Source: a virus. Taken from it: a stretch of 20,509 nucleotides of DNA. Where the stretch lies: positions 1-20,509 of the IMG/VR virus record IMGVR_UViG_3300011440_000060. The stretch is one strand, 5' to 3'. Below the pieces are notes generated by a model that saw nothing but the letters and a program-made list of their open reading frames with translations, made no database searches and was not told the origin of the DNA. Position 1 is the first letter of the stretch. Every line of letters starts with the position of its first letter. Shown piece by piece: positions 7,979 to 18,177 of this stretch. The translations under genes were made by a program, and so were the position numbers.

Positions 7979-8575
7979 TTAATCCAAGTTCGGGTCTTCG
8001 ACAAAGCGCACCGTCGCGGTGCCCATCCGCGCCGGGTCGATTGTCAGTGTCATTTCATCGTCGCTCGCCAGTCGGCACTTGCAGATCAGGTCGTTGAACC
8101 AGATCGGCCAGGCATCAGGGAAGCCGTCGCGCAGCGGCGGGCGGAAGCTGAAGCTGTATTGATCGGAGCCGAGCGCGGTGACACCGAACGCCCGGTAGAG
8201 CCGCTCTTGAATGCTGAAATGCTGCCCTGGCACAACCGGCGCACCGATCCGCTGCACGGTCATCACGGTGGCGCCGACGGTGTAAGCCCCGACCGATATG
8301 CCATCCGGCGTCGAGGTCGTGGCATCGCCAATTAACGGCACCAGGATCGGCACACTGCCGCCGTCGAGGTAGGCCTCGTAGGCATCCCAGACGCGCAGCT
8401 GTTCGTCGGTGGCGACCAAGATGTTCTCATAAGTGATCTGCCACGAATGGATGGGCACCGACACCCGCTGGGTGAAGCCGGCGGTCGAGACGGTCCCGGC
8501 CGTGGTACGCGGTGCGATGTGGCGCACGATGCGGGCGGGGCGCAGATACGCGATGGGCCAGCGCTCGGCGGTCAT
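7979..8575 (-). CDS. Distal-tail-like protein (Dit/gpM position)
   Basis: This 198-residue protein is encoded immediately after the tape measure, where siphophages encode the distal tail protein that links tube and tip. It has a beta-rich N-terminal half (AGFTQRVSVPIHSWQITYEN) followed by a helical QLRVWDAYEAYLDGGSVPIL segment. A late DAWPIWFNDLICKCRLASDD stretch resembles the tail-tip proteins found in Rhizobiales siphophages. The start ATG at 8575 overlaps the tape measure stop as ATGA. I cannot assign a named family with certainty. The role at the tip is inferred from order, size and beta-rich composition. Confidence 0.6.
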   Translation of the reverse strand: MTAERWPIAYLRPARIVRHIAPRTTAGTVSTAGFTQRVSVPIHSWQITYENILVATDEQLRVWDAYEAYLDGGSVPILVPLIGDATTSTPDGISVGAYTVGATVMTVQRIGAPVVPGQHFSIQERLYRAFGVTALGSDQYSFSFRPPLRDGFPDAWPIWFNDLICKCRLASDDEMTLTIDPARMGTATVRFVEDPNLD

Positions 8576-10440
8576 AGCTGGCGGGCCTGCGCCTCGGCCG
8601 ACATGCCGCCGAAATTGCGCGCCACTGTGCGCTGCGATTGCCTGACCGCGACCTCGATGATCTGCCCCGAGCGGGTGACGATGCGCTGGTCGGCGACGCC
8701 GGCAACCCAGCCTTCGCTCGGGTTCAGATCAATGCGAATGGTTCCGCCGCCGCGGCGGGCGTCGCTCTGGCGCGTGACGTCCACCATCTCGCCGGGCGAC
8801 GCGCGGAACGCGACCAACTGGCTGTCGAGCGCGCCCGCCCCGCCGACCCGCCAGTGCGCGCCGTTCTGTGCCTTCGCGAGCCCGCCGAACAACGAGCCGA
8901 AGATGCCGCCGCCGGCTGAGCCGCCGAACAACGCGCTCCCGGCAGCGTTGAACAACGCGTCGAACGCCTTGTCGGCGAGCTTCTTGCCGATGCTCTTTAA
9001 CAGGTTGCCGATCGCGTCGCGGAGCTTGAAGGTACCCTCGATCAGAGCATCGAAGGCGCTGCCGAGCGAGCCCTTGATGCTGTCGCCGAGATCGGAAAAC
9101 ACTTCCTTGAACTTGTTGCGCGTCTCCAGCGCGGACTCCTGGAAAGTGGCCTCGCGCTCGGTCAGATAGCGTTCTTCATCGAGTTTCTCGGCGGCTCGCA
9201 GTTTGCGGGTTTCGTCCTGGTCGGCGACCGCGGCCTCCAACTTCTTTTTGTAGAACCCCTGCGTCGCCGCCCATTTCTCGTCGAGTAATTTGCGCTCGGC
9301 CGCGATGCTTTCCTGCTTGGTGATTTTCTCCATCGCGAGATCGTGCTTGAGCGCCTGCTCCCGGCGCCGGAATAGCTCGTCCGAAATCTTGCTCTGCTCC
9401 TCGGCGGCCTCGATGGCTTCGCGCTGGCGGCGCTCCAGTTCCCGCTCGGCGGCGCGGGCCAACGCATCCTCGCCCTTGCCGGCACCACCGCCGCCCTTCT
9501 TTGGCCCGGCTGTTTTGGGAATGCTTGTCGGCTTCGCTGTAACAACCACTTCCGGTAAAACTGCGGTTGCAACATCCGAGCCCTGCATCAGGTTCTTAAA
9601 AAAATTGTAGAATTGAATGATCTTGCGGAGTTCCTCGACCGTGGTCTGCAGGCGGTTGATGCCCTCTTGAATAAAGTCGACGAATACCGCAAACGCATCC
9701 CGCCCCGTCGCCGTGATCGTGGCAAACAGATTGTCCAGTGATTTATCGACAGCCTTTGCTGCTTCGTCAAAGGCGGCCATCCCCGGATTGAGATCATCAA
9801 ATGCCTTTTTCTGTGCCGCTAGACCATCGGCTCCGTCCTTGAAAAGCCCAATTAGCGTCCGCCAACGGCCACTAAGAAGTTCGGCCATCGCCGCAGTCTT
9901 TTGCGGGCCATCCGGTAATTTTTGGAAGGCGTTTGCGAGTAGGTCTATTACTCCTGAGAGGTTATTGCTATTTGCCTGTAATTGTTGCTGGCTGATGCCA
10001 AGGTCTTTGAATGCGCGGGCCGCCGTGCCAGTCGGTTCGGCCAGAGCGTCCCGCAATGCTACCGCGAGCTTGGTCAGCGTCCGGGCGGCTTCATCTGCGG
10101 TGGTGCCATTTGCGATAAGCACGCCTTCCAATCTACGAAGCTCAGCGATGGGCAATCCTAAAGCGATGGCGAGGTTCTCGGCGGCTTCGCCAGAATCGGC
10201 CATACTCTTGACCCAACCTGCGATCCCGGCGACGGCACCGCCGAACGCCAGCGCCCTGAGCGAACCGGCGATGCCGTTAATGCTGCCGGTGATCGTCTTC
10301 GCCTGACCATCAATCGTTCGGGCGACACCGGCAAATTGCCGCCCGAAGCCCGTCAGCTTGGCGTTTGCCTCGGCGATGCCCTTATTGAAGCTCGCCGTCT
10401 CCATCTGCAGCGCGACGAGCAGATTGCCGATCTCAGGCAT
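8572..10440 (-). CDS. Tail tape measure protein
   Basis: This 622-residue protein sets tail length and is ejected ahead of the DNA in siphophages. The N-terminus (IGNLLVALQMETASFNKGIA) is the characteristic start of many tape measure proteins. It is followed by amphipathic helices and a hydrophobic Ala/Gly segment around residues 60-80. Residues about 325-430 form a highly charged coiled coil with repeated Glu, Arg and Lys. The C-terminal part has Gly-rich FGSLFGGL segments, then DSQLVAFRASPGEMVDV, which is typical of tape measure C-termini. At roughly 1.5 angstroms per residue a tail near 90-95 nm is expected. The start is ATG at 10440 because MPEIGNLL begins the conserved part and overlaps the preceding stop by eight bases. 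Base composition in the central section is clearly lower in GC than at both ends. Confidence 0.92.
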   Translation of the reverse strand: MPEIGNLLVALQMETASFNKGIAEANAKLTGFGRQFAGVARTIDGQAKTITGSINGIAGSLRALAFGGAVAGIAGWVKSMADSGEAAENLAIALGLPIAELRRLEGVLIANGTTADEAARTLTKLAVALRDALAEPTGTAARAFKDLGISQQQLQANSNNLSGVIDLLANAFQKLPDGPQKTAAMAELLSGRWRTLIGLFKDGADGLAAQKKAFDDLNPGMAAFDEAAKAVDKSLDNLFATITATGRDAFAVFVDFIQEGINRLQTTVEELRKIIQFYNFFKNLMQGSDVATAVLPEVVVTAKPTSIPKTAGPKKGGGGAGKGEDALARAAERELERRQREAIEAAEEQSKISDELFRRREQALKHDLAMEKITKQESIAAERKLLDEKWAATQGFYKKKLEAAVADQDETRKLRAAEKLDEERYLTEREATFQESALETRNKFKEVFSDLGDSIKGSLGSAFDALIEGTFKLRDAIGNLLKSIGKKLADKAFDALFNAAGSALFGGSAGGGIFGSLFGGLAKAQNGAHWRVGGAGALDSQLVAFRASPGEMVDVTRQSDARRGGGTIRIDLNPSEGWVAGVADQRIVTRSGQIIEVAVRQSQRTVARNFGGMSAEAQARQL

Positions 10441-10669
10441 GCGGGTGCGCCTTTTGGACGGTGCCGCCAAAGGCGGCGTTAAGCTGGCGGGCGATGCGCA
10501 TTTGCTCCTGCCACGTCTGTGGCTCTTTGGGTTTTCGTGCGGGGCCGAGGAGGTCTTTCAGGGGCGGCAGGCGCTTCGTGCGGTCCAATGCCACGATGTG
10601 CCAGGCGAGCCAGGCGCGGGCGCGCTGCTCATAGTCGAGGCGCTGTTCGTCCGCTTCGCGGTGGGTCAT
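10433..10669 (-). CDS. Tail assembly chaperone, second frame (TAC_6-like; probably made by frameshift)
   Basis: As annotated from ATG this is a 78-residue frame that follows the first chaperone by a TGATG overlap. It contains ARAWLAWHIVALDRTKRLPPL, a pattern typical of the small TAC_6-type chaperones of gene transfer agents and alphaproteobacterial siphophages. The defining FW motif of that family is not inside this frame. It lies upstream in the same -1 frame (SEESFWASTLRQV, roughly 10673-10710), within the end of the preceding gene, where the frame is open but has no usable start codon. The functional product is therefore likely a fusion reached by -1 ribosomal frameshifting from the upstream gene, as with lambda gpG-gpT. 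Such chaperones coat the tape measure protein during tail assembly. Independent reinitiation at 10669 is the alternative. Confidence 0.75.
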   Translation of the reverse strand: MTHREADEQRLDYEQRARAWLAWHIVALDRTKRLPPLKDLLGPARKPKEPQTWQEQMRIARQLNAAFGGTVQKAHPHA

Positions 10670-11088
10670 CACCTGTCGGAGAGTGCTCGCCCAGAAACTT
10701 TCTTCGCTGCGGCCGGCGGCGATCCATTCGACGAGGAGTCGATGCCAGGGGACGTCGCCGTCATCGGAGGAGGGCTTTTGCCGTTGGCAGCCTCCGCGGT
10801 CGGGAACGCGAGGCGCACGGTCTTTTCCAGAAGGTTCGCGGCCGGCAGATAACCGCCCAGCTCGTCGATGATGTCGGTGGTTTCTTCGAGACTTGGCTTG
10901 CCGTCGAGCGCGGCGCGGAAGATGCGGCGGATGTCGGTCATCCGGCCCAGTTCAAGGTGCGCCAGGACCCGCATGATGCCGAGATCGAACTCGGCTTCGA
11001 GCTCGCACATGGCATTCGTATCGAGCCGCAGCGTGCGGGTGCGGCCACCCGCTGCAAACTCGACTTCGCCTTTATGCGGGTTCGCCAT
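10669..11088 (-). CDS. Tail assembly chaperone, first frame (GTA TAC-like)
   Basis: This 139-residue protein lies between tail tube and tape measure. The first 100 residues read GEVEFAAGGRTRTLRLDTNA, then MCELEAEFDLGI, then a helical part ending LLEKTVRLAF. This pattern is that of the gene-transfer-agent-type tail assembly chaperone family (TAC_11). The last 40 residues are Pro/Ser/Ala-rich, low in structure and unlike the rest. They overlap an open -1 frame that reads as a good chaperone sequence, so the tail of this protein is probably what is made when no frameshift occurs. The start ATG at 11088 is two bases after the tail tube stop. The chaperone binds the tape measure protein in the cytoplasm and is absent from the finished virion in known systems. 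Confidence 0.85.
   Translation of the reverse strand: MANPHKGEVEFAAGGRTRTLRLDTNAMCELEAEFDLGIMRVLAHLELGRMTDIRRIFRAALDGKPSLEETTDIIDELGGYLPAANLLEKTVRLAFPTAEAANGKSPPPMTATSPGIDSSSNGSPPAAAKKVSGRALSDR
10673..10830 (-). other. Probable -1 programmed frameshift zone joining the two chaperone frames
   Basis: In the -1 frame the last 40 codons of the first chaperone translate to DVPWHRLLVEWIAAGRSEES followed directly by FWASTLRQV, and run without a stop into the second chaperone. The zero frame here encodes only a low-complexity Pro/Ser/Ala tail. No ATG, GTG or TTG exists in the -1 frame between 10798 and the GTG at 10672. No perfect X-XXY-YYZ heptamer is present. Possible slip sites in the zero frame are G-GAA-AAG (10822-10828) and the Pro codons CCT-CCT-CCG (10765-10773). 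The exact slip site is not determined. Confidence 0.6.
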
Positions 11089-11090
11089 GA

Positions 11091-11519
11091 CTATTCGATA
11101 AAGGCGGTCACGCCGGTTACCTTGAAGGTGGCGGTCAACGACATTTTGTCGTCCAAAGGCACTTCGCTTTCGATGCCGGTGCAGAACGCATCGAAGATCC
11201 AGAACGGGGCCGGGGAGCCGGGGAATAAGATCCGCCAGGTCGCCACGGTGTCGGTTGTGAAAGCGGTGTACAGCGCGTCTATGCTGGTGCTGCCTGGAAC
11301 GAAGTTCATCTCGACCGATACCTCGCCGCCATCGCGCAGACCGGGGACGTATTCCCGCCACTTTTGCGGCGACGCCATGTGCGTCGCGTCCACGGTGTCG
11401 CGCACCATTTGCGGCGGTGTGATCGAGACGACCTCGGCAAAGTCGGTAAAGACCTGGGGCGAGCCGCCGTCCCCGACACCGAAACTGGTGCCGTGGCCAA
11501 TCGTAACCTGCGTAGCCAT
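11091..11519 (-). CDS. Major tail tube protein
   Basis: This 142-residue protein has the size and layout of the siphophage tail tube protein that polymerises into stacked hexameric rings around the tape measure. It is almost all beta strands. Segments typical of the family include FTDFAEVVSITPPQMVRDTV, then THMASPQKWREYVPGLRDGG, and FVPGSTSIDALYTAF followed by WRILFPG. It lies between the tail-terminator gene and the tail chaperones, the standard order. The TAG stop is followed two bases later by the chaperone ATG. The gene is expected to be the most abundant tail component. No Ig-like extension is present at the C-terminus. Confidence 0.9.
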   Translation of the reverse strand: MATQVTIGHGTSFGVGDGGSPQVFTDFAEVVSITPPQMVRDTVDATHMASPQKWREYVPGLRDGGEVSVEMNFVPGSTSIDALYTAFTTDTVATWRILFPGSPAPFWIFDAFCTGIESEVPLDDKMSLTATFKVTGVTAFIE

Positions 11520-12735: not shown

Positions 12736-13316
12736 CCGAAGCCGATCCGCGCATGATTGATCAGGAGCGCCGTCACCGCGTAAGGCACTTCGGCGAGGTT
12801 GCCAGCGGCGGCCGTCTCGCGCTGCGCGTACCAGTGCCCGACGAGCAGCAGCATGGCCTGGCGGATCGGTGCCGCGACCGCGGCCGGCGCCTGGCCGGCG
12901 ACAAATTCCACCGTCACCGCGTCGTCGCGCACCGCGGTGGCGGGCCATAGGGCGTCGGTGGTGCGCTCGATCCGGGGCCCGGCCTCGGCCTGCACCAGCC
13001 GGTAAAGCGTGTCGCCGACCACCCCCGCAACGCCGGCCTCGTCGTAATAGTTGATCGCGGTCACCGCCTCTACCGGCTGCAGCCCGAGCGGCAGCAATAT
13101 CGGGTCGGTGAACAGCGGATAGGCCTGCGCCCAGGATTGCGTGACGAGCGCCCGCCCCAGAATGCCCGTCGCGCCTTCGAGGTAGCCCGTCGCGGCGTCA
13201 ATGTAGAGCTGCAGCGTCGGGTCTTCGTCGGTGTGGTCGATCCGCAGATGCGCCCGTACGTCCTCGAGGCTAATCGGGGAGAGGATCGGCGCTTCGGTGC
13301 GAATTGCGGTCAGCAT
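12732..13316 (-). CDS. Head-tail connector (HK97 gp6 / phiE125 gp8 family)
   Basis: This 194-residue protein matches the connector family that binds the portal ring: LSPISLEDVRAHLRIDHTDE, DPTLQLYIDAATGYLEGATG, then a RALVTQSWAQAY strand. Late in the protein come PAAVAAPIRQAMLLLVGHWY followed by a QRETA segment, and a C-terminal VPYAVTALLINHARI. These are diagnostic for the phiE125 gp8 / HK97 gp6-type families. The start ATG at 13316 overlaps the preceding stop as TGATG. It is separated from the portal gene by the collagen-like gene, an unusual intrusion into the usual portal-connector neighbourhood. Reading further upstream from 13526 in the same frame gives only an Arg/Ala/Pro shadow of the collagen gene. 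Confidence 0.92.
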   Translation of the reverse strand: MLTAIRTEAPILSPISLEDVRAHLRIDHTDEDPTLQLYIDAATGYLEGATGILGRALVTQSWAQAYPLFTDPILLPLGLQPVEAVTAINYYDEAGVAGVVGDTLYRLVQAEAGPRIERTTDALWPATAVRDDAVTVEFVAGQAPAAVAAPIRQAMLLLVGHWYAQRETAAAGNLAEVPYAVTALLINHARIGFG

Positions 13317-14188
13317 CAGGCGCGCACCAGGAGCGGGTAGAGATCGGCGGTCAGAGTAGAGCCGTCCGCCAGGGTCAAGGTCAGGAGTCCCGCGTCGTCG
13401 ACCGAGAAGCCTTGCGGCGCGGGGCCCGGCGGGCCGGGATAACCGCGCTCGCCATCGGCGCCGCGCGGGCCGAGCGGCCCGGCCTTGCCGCGGGAGGCGA
13501 CGAGCTGCCAGCCGTCGCCGGGACATGGGCCTGGCGCGTCCTGTAATGCCACCCAGGACCCGCCGTCATGTGCAATGACATCGAGATATCCATAATCACG
13601 GCCTGCCTTCCAAGTGCCCCGGAATGCCAGCGAGCGGCCATCGCGCCCCGCCGCGGCGAGCACCGCCCAATCATCGGCCGGCGGCGGCTGGCCGGTGTCG
13701 CGCAACGCCTGCCAGGTGCTGCCGCCGAGTGTCACGACGTCGCCGGCGTACCAGACGCCGGCACGCCATACCGACACGGCCGCCAATTTGCCGGGCGGGC
13801 CCTCGGGACCGGGCGGTCCGGCGATGCTCTCGCCGTCGCGGCCGGGCGGGCCCTCGGGACCGGGCGGTCCAGCTATGGACTCGCCAGGCTCGCCCTTGTC
13901 GCCGGGCGGGCCCTGGGGTCCGGTGATGCTGTCCCCGTCCTTGACCAGCGCCAGGCGCGCCGCGACCTGGTCGGCGAGCTGCTGCAGGGCGCCCCGCACG
14001 CACGCCTCGGCTTCGAGCCGGGCGGCGCGCAGTTCGGCCAGCGCGGCGGCGAGATCGGCTTTGGCGGCGGCGACCTCGAGGCGCACCTCGCGCTCGAGCC
14101 GGGCGACATCGGCACCGAGTTCGCCGGCGAGCGCCTCAAGCGGCAGCGCGCGCGGCTCGGTAGGCCCGGATCGCCCGCTCGGCATCAT
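13316..14188 (-). CDS. Collagen-like protein with two CBM5/12-like modules
   Basis: This 290-residue protein has a clear modular layout. Residues about 15-80 form an Ala/Glu/Arg/Leu coiled coil. Residues about 84-130 are G-x-y collagen-like repeats (GPQGPPGDKGEPGES, with GPPGPEGPPG twice). Two related modules of about 45 residues follow, each with Trp, a Tyr, then a GG-x-W segment (WRAGVWYAGDVVTLGGSTWQ and WKAGRDYGYLDVIAHDGGSW), like CBM5/12 carbohydrate-binding modules. A second short collagen stretch (GPLGPRGADGERGYPGPPGP) leads to a C-terminal DGSTLTADLYPLL. Coiled coil plus collagen suggests a trimeric fibre. It overlaps the portal C-terminus by about 50 bases. The start is uncertain among 14209, 14188 and 14185; GCGAGG precedes 14188. 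It may be a head fibre or decoration protein that binds glycans. Confidence 0.8.
   Translation of the reverse strand: MMPSGRSGPTEPRALPLEALAGELGADVARLEREVRLEVAAAKADLAAALAELRAARLEAEACVRGALQQLADQVAARLALVKDGDSITGPQGPPGDKGEPGESIAGPPGPEGPPGRDGESIAGPPGPEGPPGKLAAVSVWRAGVWYAGDVVTLGGSTWQALRDTGQPPPADDWAVLAAAGRDGRSLAFRGTWKAGRDYGYLDVIAHDGGSWVALQDAPGPCPGDGWQLVASRGKAGPLGPRGADGERGYPGPPGPAPQGFSVDDAGLLTLTLADGSTLTADLYPLLVRA
13791..13870 (-). repeat. Collagen-coding tandem repeat (two identical 29-base copies)
   Basis: A 29-base element at 13791-13819 recurs exactly at 13842-13870, spaced 51 bases (17 codons), with a partial third copy near 13902-13916. It encodes the repeated GPPGPEGPPG block followed by a DG-ES-IA spacer. 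The period is a multiple of three, so unit number can change without breaking the frame. It is coding, not a CRISPR array. Confidence 0.8.
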
Positions 14189-15527
14189 CCTCGCTTTCGT
14201 CTTCGTCATTGGCCGGCTCGGGCAGCGCCGGCGGTGCTGCCGGCGTCGCCGGCGGCGGCTGCATGTCCGAGCCGTAGGACAGCGGCACGACCTGCTGCTG
14301 CACCCGCGGCTCCTTGCCGTGGCCGCCCGGCACGCGGCCGAGATCGACCAGTGCGCGGGCTTCGTCGGGCGCATAGATGCCGCCGATGACGCCGAGCTGC
14401 AGCGCCTCCATCTGCTCTTTGAATTCGCTGCGCAGGAGACCGCGCGTGTCCATCTCGAGCCACTCGAACGGCGGCCCGCGCAACCCGAAAAAGAGGCCCA
14501 TCGCCTCCTCGAAATGGTTGAGGCAGAACCCGAACCCGCTGGCGAGCCAGCTGGAATAGAGCGCCTCGGTGGAGCTCACCGCCTGGGTTCCGAGCCCGAG
14601 GATCGGCAGCGGGATGCGAAAGGCCAGCGCGATGTTCTCGCTGTTCATTTTCAGCAGTTCGGCGAGGCGCCCGTCATTTGCCGACATCGTGACGGCGCGA
14701 GCTTTCAAGCCCCATCCGATAGCCGGCGAGCGGCCGGCATTCGATCCGGTTGTCGCGTCCTGGAACTCGTCGGCCAGTTCCTTCGCCTTGCCGGTTGCCA
14801 ATTTCTCGTCGGTTTCGAGCACAAAGCGCGGCGTGGCGCCGTTGAGATAATGCCGCACTTGCTGCGACAGCGCCGCGCCCGAGAGCGCCATGTCGAGCGC
14901 CGCCGCCGTAATCGGCGAGACGCCTATCAGCGGGTGCCTCGGGGTATGCAAGCGCAGGTGCAACACGTTGCGCGCCGGCTGCGGCTCGGTGAGGTCGACG
15001 CCGCGGGTGCGCAGATAGGTTTCGAGATCGGCGTGCGCCCGCAGCACATACCACAGGCCGCCGCCGGAGCGGTCGGAGAAGGCCGGCGTCGCGCGGTCCA
15101 TCAGGTGCAGCGACTCGACCTCGCCCCGGTCGTTGCGCAATGCCAGCGCATAGGCGTTGCCCTCGGCGTAGAGCCGCCGGATCAGGTTGAGCACGACATC
15201 GCTGATCGAGGAATAATCGTTCGGATCGCGCAGGATGCGGGCCAGCGCCGAATTGGTGACCTGTTCCTTGCCGCCGTCGGGTAGCGCTTTCCAATGCCCG
15301 CCAGGCAGGCTCGCGGTGGTCTGCGAATAGGCCGCGACGCAGGCCTCGACCATCGCGCTGGCGCCGGCATAGGGGCGCACATCCTGCGCCGACTGCCAGA
15401 AATTCCACGGCGTTCCCGCCGGCAGCCAGCCGTTCGAGAGCAGGTAGGGCCCGGGACGATACTGCCCCTCGACCGCCGGCGCCGCCCGCCGCAGCGGCGC
15501 CAGCATGGTTTCTACCCAGCGCAGCAT
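14136..15527 (-). CDS. Portal protein (HK97 family)
   Basis: This 463-residue protein has the size and motifs of HK97-type portals, which form the dodecameric DNA gate of the head. Typical segments are VEACVAAYSQTTASLPG, LARILRDPNDYSSISDVVLN, LIRRLYAEGNAYALALRNDR, then SPITAAALDMALSGAALSQQ, and a late FRIPLPILGLG and SSTEALYSSWLASGFGFCLN. The C-terminal 60 residues are Pro/Ala-rich, then acidic and then Arg/Ala-rich, probably unordered. The ATG at 15527 abuts the preceding TAA. In most HK97-like phages the portal gene precedes protease and capsid. Here it comes after them. Its stop lies within the start of the collagen-like gene. Confidence 0.93.
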   Translation of the reverse strand: MLRWVETMLAPLRRAAPAVEGQYRPGPYLLSNGWLPAGTPWNFWQSAQDVRPYAGASAMVEACVAAYSQTTASLPGGHWKALPDGGKEQVTNSALARILRDPNDYSSISDVVLNLIRRLYAEGNAYALALRNDRGEVESLHLMDRATPAFSDRSGGGLWYVLRAHADLETYLRTRGVDLTEPQPARNVLHLRLHTPRHPLIGVSPITAAALDMALSGAALSQQVRHYLNGATPRFVLETDEKLATGKAKELADEFQDATTGSNAGRSPAIGWGLKARAVTMSANDGRLAELLKMNSENIALAFRIPLPILGLGTQAVSSTEALYSSWLASGFGFCLNHFEEAMGLFFGLRGPPFEWLEMDTRGLLRSEFKEQMEALQLGVIGGIYAPDEARALVDLGRVPGGHGKEPRVQQQVVPLSYGSDMQPPPATPAAPPALPEPANDEDESEDDAERAIRAYRAARAAA

Positions 15528-15873: not shown

Positions 15874-16252
15874 AGCGGTTGGTCACTTGCTGGTACAGAA
15901 GCGCAGCGGGCACCTCGATCGCGACGGCGAAGTCGCGTTGCGCCGCCTGGATTACCGGGAATGCCCGGGTGCCGCTGCGTACCTTCAGAAACGCGACGGC
16001 GCGCAGGTAATCCGAGAGCGGCGCGACGACGACGGCCGAACCCGGCACCACCGGGATCACGATCTCGCGGCCGTCGATCGTCACGAGATCGTTGTAGCCG
16101 GCGCCGTCGCTCGATATCTGGAACGACAGGTTGGCGCCGGTCCAGACGGCCGGCATGGTCAGCCGCACGATCTCGCCGGCGGTGCAGTCGAGCCCCGCCG
16201 ACAAGGATTGCCCGGCCGCGATGATCGGGCCGTTCAGAACCTGCAGCGGCAT
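15872..16252 (-). CDS. Small beta-rich head protein, possible capsid decoration protein
   Basis: This 126-residue protein follows the capsid gene directly, with a TAATG overlap that fixes the start at 16252 rather than at the in-frame upstream ATG (16285). It is mostly beta-like: GEIVRLTMPAVWTGANLSFQ, SSDGAGYNDLVTID, PLSDYLRAVAFLKVRSGT, then a late DFAVAIEV strand. The pattern 'W..A.L.F..S.DG......' and 'V.FLKVRSGT' recurs in small hypothetical proteins beside capsid genes of alphaproteobacterial phages. Position and fold type suggest a head decoration or stabilising protein, but I know of no established function. There is no signal peptide. Confidence 0.7.
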   Translation of the reverse strand: MPLQVLNGPIIAAGQSLSAGLDCTAGEIVRLTMPAVWTGANLSFQISSDGAGYNDLVTIDGREIVIPVVPGSAVVVAPLSDYLRAVAFLKVRSGTRAFPVIQAAQRDFAVAIEVPAALLYQQVTNR

Positions 16253-18177
16253 TACGCCGGCGCCCAGTTGACGCCCGCCATCCACTGCACCATGCCGGTG
16301 CGGCGCATCGCCCAGGTCACCGGCATGATCAGACGCAGCGCCAGCTGGTTGGTCTGGAACATGCTCTCGACCGGAGTCGATGCGGTCCCAGAAACGATAT
16401 GAGCGGGCGCGGTGTCCTCGATGTGCAATGTCGCCTCCTCGCTGACCATGAATTCCGGCGTGCCCATTGCGCTGACGAAATCTTCGCCCTCGACCATGAT
16501 GACGGTGCCGGCCGGCACCACCGTCGATTCGATTATGGTCATTCCTTCCGTCACCGCGGCCGTCCAGCCGATGCCCATGTTGCCCGGGCCGGGCACCAGG
16601 CCCAGCGCCCGGCGCTGCGCCGGGTTCATCAGCATCACCAGCCTGGCGCCCGCGTTCACGGCGTAGAACGGCGCGGTCAATTTGCCGATGTCGCCGAGCA
16701 CCGCGCCGTAGCCGCCGCCGGCCGTGGCGGTCAGCGCCGCAACGCCGTTGAGCAGCCCGGCCGGCCGGGTGGCGCTACCAGCGACGGCGTCGATCACCAG
16801 CGTGTCGAGCACGATGTTGGTGGTGCGGATGATCTCGCTGCGCACCAGACCCTCGATCGACGGGTTCGATGCCTCCGCGATCTCTCTGCTGTACCGGGTG
16901 ATGACGCCGACCTTGTGCGGCCGCAATTCGATCGACGTGAACCCCATCCGGCGCACCGGGATCGGCTGGGCTTCACCGACGAAGCTGCCCGCGATCGACG
17001 GCGTGGTGGCGGTCGACGGGATCTTGATGACCCAGCCGTCCGGCCCGAAGTTGAGCGCCGTGCCGGCGGCCGACAGCCCCGGCAGGATGCGGCCGGGCGT
17101 CAGGGGCGCGAGGAATTCGCGACTGGTGGTCTGCACCAGTTCGGCGGCCCAGGTCGCCAGCGTCGTCGAGGCGCCGGGCTGCGCGGCGCGGGTGATGATC
17201 GAGGTGGCTTCGTCGTCGGGATACCAGTCGCGCAGGATCTCCTCGATCGGCTTTCTGGTGGCGTTATGGTGCAACGAGATGGCGCCCGCCCGCGCCCAGT
17301 AGTCGACGCCCTCGAGCTCGCGCTTCGGCAGGCTGAGCGGCCGACGGTTGATCGCCGGCGCGGTGACGGTGGTGGCGGCGGCCTGCTGCGCCGGCACGCG
17401 CGGCGCCAGCGCCTTTTCGGCGACTTCGAGGCTGGCGAGCTCCTCCTGCAGCGCATCGACCTCGCCCGCCATCGCGTCGCGCTGCGAGCGGTCCTGGTGC
17501 TCTTGCGCGAGATATTCGGTGAGCGCGTCGCGCGAGGCGTTGAGGCGTTCCTGTACGGCTTGAATCTTCTGTCCGATGTTCATGGTTGACGTGATCCTGG
17601 GCGGTGCCCGCGTCGCGGGAACCCGGTACGGATCGGCAAGCTCGCCGCGTCTGCCGTCCAGCCCTGTTGCGGCAAGCTCGCCGAAGGCCAGGCGGATCGT
17701 CTCTTCGCTAATGTGCAGGGACCGCGCGAGGTGCAGCGCGGACGGGTTGGCCGGCACCGACACGATGCTGGCTTCGAGCAATTCGGTTTCGAGGAAGCGG
17801 GTGCCGCGGTGCGGCGCCTCGGGGTCGATCGGTTCGCGTTTTAGCGGGCGGAACCCGACGCTGGTCGCCGGCAGGATGTCCTGCCTAATCAGGCTGATGA
17901 TCTCGTCGATGCGGGCGCTGGTGCCGGCGTCGGCCGGCGCGAGATCGGCGATCAGCTGCTCGCCCTCGACCCGCGGGTTGCGCCAGGTGCCGATCGGGAA
18001 GCTGGTGTCGTGGTTGAACAGCGCCACAGGGTTGCGGCGGAACCAGTCGAGCTGCCAGCCCGACGGCTCGATGATGTCGCCCATGCGGTCGCGGGTCGCG
18101 TCGCTGAGCACGAACGACAGCGAGCCGGCGCGCTTGCCGGCCGCCTCGCGGCGGTGCATTGCCATTCCGTTAACCAT
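16252..18177 (-). CDS. Fused HK97-type prohead protease and major capsid protein
   Basis: One 641-codon frame joins two proteins that are separate genes in HK97. Residues 1-150 are the S78-type prohead protease: a LFNHD segment with His56, an ATSVGF segment with Ser106, and LLEASIVSVPANPSA with Glu135. These are the likely catalytic residues. Residues 199-262 form a charged coiled coil, like the scaffolding delta domain. The rest is the HK97-fold capsid: VQTTSREFLAPLTPGRILPG, then YSREIAEASNPSIEGLVRSE, then LVMLMNPAQRRALGL. Cleavage to the mature subunit probably falls near residues 275-290. An internal ATG at 17583 (Met199), with AGGA 11 bases before it, could make a separate scaffold-capsid protein. 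The main start is unclear among ATGs at 18177, 18165 and 18159; GGA is best placed for 18159. Confidence 0.9.
   Translation of the reverse strand: MVNGMAMHRREAAGKRAGSLSFVLSDATRDRMGDIIEPSGWQLDWFRRNPVALFNHDTSFPIGTWRNPRVEGEQLIADLAPADAGTSARIDEIISLIRQDILPATSVGFRPLKREPIDPEAPHRGTRFLETELLEASIVSVPANPSALHLARSLHISEETIRLAFGELAATGLDGRRGELADPYRVPATRAPPRITSTMNIGQKIQAVQERLNASRDALTEYLAQEHQDRSQRDAMAGEVDALQEELASLEVAEKALAPRVPAQQAAATTVTAPAINRRPLSLPKRELEGVDYWARAGAISLHHNATRKPIEEILRDWYPDDEATSIITRAAQPGASTTLATWAAELVQTTSREFLAPLTPGRILPGLSAAGTALNFGPDGWVIKIPSTATTPSIAGSFVGEAQPIPVRRMGFTSIELRPHKVGVITRYSREIAEASNPSIEGLVRSEIIRTTNIVLDTLVIDAVAGSATRPAGLLNGVAALTATAGGGYGAVLGDIGKLTAPFYAVNAGARLVMLMNPAQRRALGLVPGPGNMGIGWTAAVTEGMTIIESTVVPAGTVIMVEGEDFVSAMGTPEFMVSEEATLHIEDTAPAHIVSGTASTPVESMFQTNQLALRLIMPVTWAMRRTGMVQWMAGVNWAPA
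17581..17598 (-). promoter_or_regulatory. Possible internal translation start for the capsid part
   Basis: ATG at 17583 begins MNIGQKIQAVQERLN, exactly where a stand-alone scaffold-capsid protein would begin. AGGA at 17595-17598 is 11 bases upstream, a little long for an ideal spacing. It could give a second, protease-free product in excess over the fusion. Confidence 0.45.

Follow-up and report, generated by a model that had tools for sequence, protein, structure and literature searches.

How can this phage make a second tail chaperone when the segment carrying its conserved motif lies in the -1 frame beneath the first chaperone gene and no start codon precedes it? Programmed -1 frameshifting is well known in tail chaperones, and the initial annotation of the window (the whole 20,509-nt stretch of viral DNA analysed here) had proposed such a shift, in the style of lambda G/GT, as the means by which the two frames are fused. 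Comparative evidence strongly supports that proposal. Judging from sequence, a programmed -1 frameshift at the tetramer C_CCU (10774-10771, minus strand) very probably joins chaperone 1 to a TAC_6-like domain, and both products would arise from one start.

On the minus strand, the tail tube gene is followed by chaperone 1, then by chaperone 2 in the -1 frame, and then by the tape measure gene; two overlapping ORFs lie between the tail tube and tape measure genes, as in lambda G/GT. The tail tube gene (11091-11519, minus strand), which lies upstream of chaperone 1, was identified by its match to PF16461 (lambda TTP; E 1.1e-20) and by synteny. The tape measure ORF, as listed, covers 8572-10470 (minus strand; phrog_8462 tape measure, E 4.7e-27; PF10145), with ATG 10440 as the probable start. 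Chaperone 1 (10669-11088, minus strand) runs from the ATG at 11088 to the TGA at 10671-10669 and encodes a zero-frame, gpG-like product of 139 aa that begins MANPHKGE. The T-like extension that would be read after the slip occupies 10433-10771 (minus strand), ending at the stop codon 10435-10433, and the region coded in both the zero and -1 frames, delimited by frame translations and codon-position difference rates, spans 10669-10771 (minus strand). Translation across the slip predicts a fusion of 218 aa with the junction ...AANGKSP|SSDDGDVPWHRLL..., for which the predicted tryptic junction peptide is SPSSDDGDVPWHR. Elsewhere in the window, a protein with collagen-like GPPGPEGPPG repeats (13316-14374, minus strand) adjoins a probable portal gene (14136-15527), and one long ORF (16252-18177, minus strand) reads as a fusion of prohead protease and major capsid protein; a similar protease-capsid fusion is annotated in Paracoccus phage vB_PbeS_Pben1.

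Chaperone 1 is a member of PF11836 (Phage_TAC_11/GTA-gp10; E 1.3e-9, 38.5 bits versus a gathering cut-off of 27.8) and also matches the tail protein phrog_2115 (E 1e-12). The window's chaperone 2 matches phrog_19318 (E 2e-16) and gave no match in a Pfam search, while its relatives hit Phage_TAC_6 (PF09550) at E 5e-4 to 5e-3, under the Pfam cut-off. Alignment of the chaperone 2 family with a TAC_6-type profile by hhalign returned a probability of 95% (E 4e-8), confined to the N-terminal helices. Homology of the -1 frame to chaperones, the absence of which the initial annotation would have taken as grounds for abandoning its proposal, is thus supported at the profile level. In AF2 models, the chaperone 1 core has pLDDT above 90 and gives way to a tail predicted to be disordered from near the shift site onward, whereas chaperone 2 is all-helical with pLDDT 91. 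A fold search of the PDB with the chaperone 1 model found no significant match, and the chaperone 2 model returned one weak viral match; neither result is informative. Synteny, PF11836 and the TAC_6-type profile match support putative gpG- and gpGT-like roles for the two products.

The frame relation is clear. The motif and its upstream helix, PWHRLLVEWIAAGRSEESFW, are encoded in the -1 frame beneath the 3' end of chaperone 1, as the initial annotation had it. In the window, this frame is open from a stop at 10954 to 10435, and the first ATG, GTG or TTG after that stop is the GTG at 10672, past the FW motif; the startless interval, previously dated from 10798, is therefore even larger. When chaperone 1 and chaperone 2 were used as queries, 82 distinct TAC_11/TAC_6-like pairs were retrieved for which the frame relation could be resolved, and in all 82 chaperone 2 lies in the -1 frame, so that the exact -1 relation seen in the window is not the product of an indel or assembly error. 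When 30 codons were examined, 79 of these pairs had no ATG, GTG or TTG before the conserved W in the -1 frame, and 50 of the 79 also lacked CTG, ATT, ATC and ATA there. Other searches yielded little: the window, queried as DNA against named phages, gave no match, and scanning genomes with an alignment of chaperone 1 hit a single bacterial genome, Pseudolabrys, because the conserved seed MANPHKGE was too narrow.

The point at which the frame changes can be located from codon-position difference rates in 150 pairs of relatives. Upstream of the CCT codon, the fastest-changing position is the third of the zero frame (0.51-0.58); from about +30 downstream, it is the second of the zero frame, which is the third of the -1 frame (0.51-0.55), and the stretch between has the intermediate pattern of dual coding. 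The comparison of substitution by frame across related phages that had been suggested earlier thus reveals a switch to the -1 frame at the CCT codon. Stop codons bracket the same site. Specifically, the -1 frame is closed two codons upstream of CCT in L133 and L139, and three or four codons upstream in nine more loci, and in L158 the zero frame ends with the codon right after C_CCU. Taken together, the phase switch and the stop bracketing place the shift at C_CCU. Between the window and its relative L080, there are 0 differences in the 30 nt from +30 to +59 after CCT (window 10714-10743, minus strand), which may reflect either dual coding or an RNA structure missed by the folding used. This identical stretch covers most of an inner TCGAC/GTCGA hairpin.

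What, then, is the slip motif? As the initial annotation had noted, the window has no in-register X_XXY_YYZ heptamer from 10954 down to where the zero frame stops at 10671. Its in-register tetramers are G_GGC (10947 and 10857), A_AAG (10824), C_CCG (10803) and C_CCU (10773 and 10749). At the first C_CCU, zero-frame AGC CCT (10776-10771) places the slip codon in the zero frame, as is characteristic of Z_ZZN motifs. The two candidate slip points named previously fared differently: the run of Pro codons (10773-10765) is borne out for its first codon only, and GGAAAAG (10828-10822) is rejected because zero-frame coding runs past it and because -1 stops in the family fall two to four codons before C_CCU.

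Conservation of C_CCU (zero frame NNC CCU) extends throughout the family. It occurs in the accessible overlap of 61 of the 82 sequences and, after clustering at 70% chaperone 2 identity, in 40 of 51 clusters; by frame, CCCU is distributed 41:0:1 in the 51 cluster overlaps. Codon shuffling, a conservative null since it retains the CCT codons, gave a mean of 13.2 clusters with C_CCT (maximum 25 in 1000), and synonymous resampling gave a mean of 6.9 (maximum 16). Among the Pro codons of these genes, CCT makes up only 10.6%. The codon before it is variable (AAC, CGC, GAC, TCC, AGC, GGC, CCC or CAC) and always ends in C; the codon after it starts with C in 35 of 40 cluster representatives, giving UCN as the -1 codon. 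This flanking-codon tally used the last C_CCT where two were present, which affects few rows, the window among them. Of the 40 C_CCU representatives, 11 read A_AAC_CCU and in 3 others a different XXX precedes CCCU; all of these therefore formally match the heptamer pattern. Most of the remaining members carry G_GGA_AAG, A_AAA_AAC, C_CCA_AAC, A_AAA_AAA or G_GGA_AAC in roughly this position; C_CCU_UUN also occurs there, and C_CCC or A_AAG is seen in a few members. Of the other clusters, L003 is the nearest and has C_CCU_UUC. At least six switches between C-type and heptamer sites are implied by the tree, in which many forks are weakly supported.

Several relatives merit separate mention. In the Pben1 phage (MK291441; L160, 2582-2803), the annotated second chaperone begins about 27 codons past the family start and omits the FW helix, and the overlap region carries G_GGA_AAG. 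In GTA-like pairs from alphaproteobacterial genomes (L053, L054, L055, L059 and L070), the PFPW motif of the second chaperone is dual-coded with the canonical heptamer C_CCU_UUC. Finally, more distant MANPHKGE-type chaperones (L016-L022) possess A_AAA_AAC directly before the zero-frame stop and a second, unrelated-looking domain in the -1 frame.

Candidate stimulators flank the slip site on both sides. Upstream, mean anti-SD pairing energy in family windows starting 22 nt before the site is -4.9, versus -1.45 in the rest of chaperone 1. The best-site family mean is -6.9; the background in chaperone 1 gives -3.3, and controls with shuffled codons give -5.6 (sd 0.34), a value which indicates that the SD-like signal is owed in part to the G/A-rich linker. 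The window itself has a strong Shine-Dalgarno-like GGAGG (10795-10791, minus strand; duplex energy -9.5), 16 nt upstream of the tetramer. Downstream, family folding is strongest just past the site (z -1.54 at +6, versus about -0.3 elsewhere), and uninterrupted stems of 8 bp or more starting at +6 to +13 occur in 31 of 61 sequences, versus 4.9% of control positions. The commonest stem start is +8, a 5-nt spacer. Compensatory pairs are found in the stems of several groups, and in many members the 3' arm of the hairpin holds the letters that encode WDW of chaperone 2. Heptamer-bearing members have weaker structure (mean z -0.53 versus -1.46; p 0.03, small sample). The window's own candidate stem-loop (10760-10717, minus strand; CGGCGA...TCGCCG around the inner hairpin; dG -14.8, z about -1.1) is much weaker than the family hairpins; folded over several spans, it was never significant (z -0.2 to -1.1), and it has no 8-bp stem of the kind typical of the family.

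This weak hairpin, together with the in-register A_AAG (10825-10822) and the second in-register C_CCU (10750-10747), counts against the C_CCU model in the window, and C_CCU alone is barely shifty in E. coli (PMC4066793). A shift at either of the other two sites, of which the second C_CCU lies just before the W codon, is nonetheless unlikely, even though no tetramer shifts more readily than A_AAG in E. coli (PMC4066793). Zero-frame amino acids are conserved beyond A_AAG to CCT (window KTVRLAFPTAEAANGKSPPP versus KTVRLAFPRAAEAANGTSPPP in L002), the second C_CCU is missing in the closest relative (L002/L080), and the CCT at 10773 is the one shared across the family. Independent translation of chaperone 2 from a non-canonical start, or by termination-reinitiation, would dispense with frameshifting entirely. 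Near-cognate codons are indeed present in some -1 frames, and distant GTA-like cousins (L050, L067 and L069) have overlapping starts (GTGA or ATGA). Such cousins are the only relatives in which a second chaperone with its own start codon, which the initial annotation had regarded as damaging to its proposal, was found; there is no clear case within the family. The scarcity of starts before the conserved W makes this explanation very improbable, and it accounts neither for the conservation of C_CCU nor for the canonical heptamers that other members have at roughly this position.

Two further explanations can hardly be credited. Sequencing error, a pseudogene or a chance overlap might be entertained for a metagenomic assembly, where the window alone could not exclude error, but the 82 distinct pairs and the phase-specific selection in both frames refute it. 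Likewise, transcriptional slippage, known from other frame transitions (reviewed in PMC5009743), could in principle produce a fusion mRNA; the site, however, offers only three or four C residues with no long A/T or C run, and the SD-like and hairpin elements conserved here are of the kind that typically stimulates ribosomes to shift. There is scarcely any likelihood that it operates here.

Programmed ribosomal frameshifting at C_CCU therefore remains the preferred reading. Comparison among relatives establishes the frame relation, the lack of a start, the location of the frame change, the conservation of C_CCU and the presence of candidate stimulators at the sequence level. From these features, we infer a mechanism in which the tRNA-Pro on CCU would release and re-pair one base upstream on CCC, a G34-U wobble pair being exchanged for G34-C, provided that the anticodon of the reading tRNA is GGG. 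Decoding would then continue in the -1 frame with UCC (Ser). The tRNA on the preceding codon, not the same one in all members, would follow with poor pairing, and in A_AAC_CCU members a preceding tRNA-Asn could partly re-pair on AAA. The upstream SD-like sequence and, in most members, the hairpin about 5 nt downstream may pause and strain the ribosome. The zero-frame, gpG-like chaperone 1 would be expected to be abundant, and the gpGT-like fusion to be the minor product.

The same putative C_CCU slip site, usually with an SD-like element before it and a hairpin after it, recurs in dozens of related phages, where a slippery heptamer would normally be expected. It seems somewhat probable that C_CCU is a distinct natural -1 signal at which a single tRNA-Pro slips by G-U to G-C exchange, almost independently of the preceding codon; that an SD-like sequence, together with a hairpin carrying the fusion domain's code in its 3' arm, enhances the slip; and that this signal dominates a large tail-chaperone family of high-GC phages. 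In practice, frameshift finders based on X_XXY_YYZ would overlook most of these genes, and annotators begin the second chaperone too late. Moreover, C_CCU, C_CCC, C_CCU_UUN and classical heptamers interchange in one gene, forming a natural series in which one can directly test how much each slip codon, and the wobble-to-Watson-Crick exchange, contributes. The family also suggests that a weak tetramer can serve as the main site when paired with stimulators.

The motif itself has precedents. When a strong stimulator is present, Z_ZZN tetramers in E. coli reporters rank with A_AAG first, U_UUC and U_UUU next, C_CCU and C_CCC level behind these, and A_AAA last, and they barely shift otherwise (PMC4066793), which fits the stimulators seen in the chaperone family; C_CCU is one of six active tetramers, with modest shifting (Sharma et al. 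2014, PMC4066793). Like these motifs, the phage site would rely on a single cognate re-pairing, CCU to CCC, and would need a stimulator; unlike the reporter constructs, it is natural, conserved and equipped with candidate stimulators of its own. The earlier suggestion of a new kind of shift signal thus does not hold for the motif, which belongs to the known Z_ZZN class; what does appear to be new is that an entire family of tail chaperones has it as a natural, conserved and dominant site accompanied by stimulators. The open PMC papers searched describe no naturally occurring -1 site of the C_CCU type, and an earlier mention is possible in the survey of frameshifts in tail genes by Xu et al. 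(2004).

Among natural systems, the E. coli dnaX and IS911 cassettes likewise combine an SD-like element upstream, a slippery motif and a structure downstream, but they differ in the slippery motif, and the 3' arm of the chaperone hairpin overlaps the WDW codons in many members. Listeria phage PSA shifts +1 at ACA_CCC_(UCC_GAA) and CCC_UGA (PMC5009743), and it also uses proline codons with near-identical local letters (CCCUCCGAA); the direction here is -1 and the register is different, and the likeness is probably a coincidence. The GTA-gp10/TAC_6 pairs of alphaproteobacteria are homologous and mostly -1, but these GTA-like cousins use C_CCU_UUC, G_GGA_AAG, A_AAA_AAG or ordinary start codons. 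Finally, the locus resembles lambda G/GT in its order of tail tube, chaperone 1 with -1 fusion and tape measure, in its -1 direction and in its expected short and extended products, whereas it departs from lambda in its slip site, C_CCU rather than G_GGA_AAG, and in its protein families, TAC_11 and TAC_6-like.
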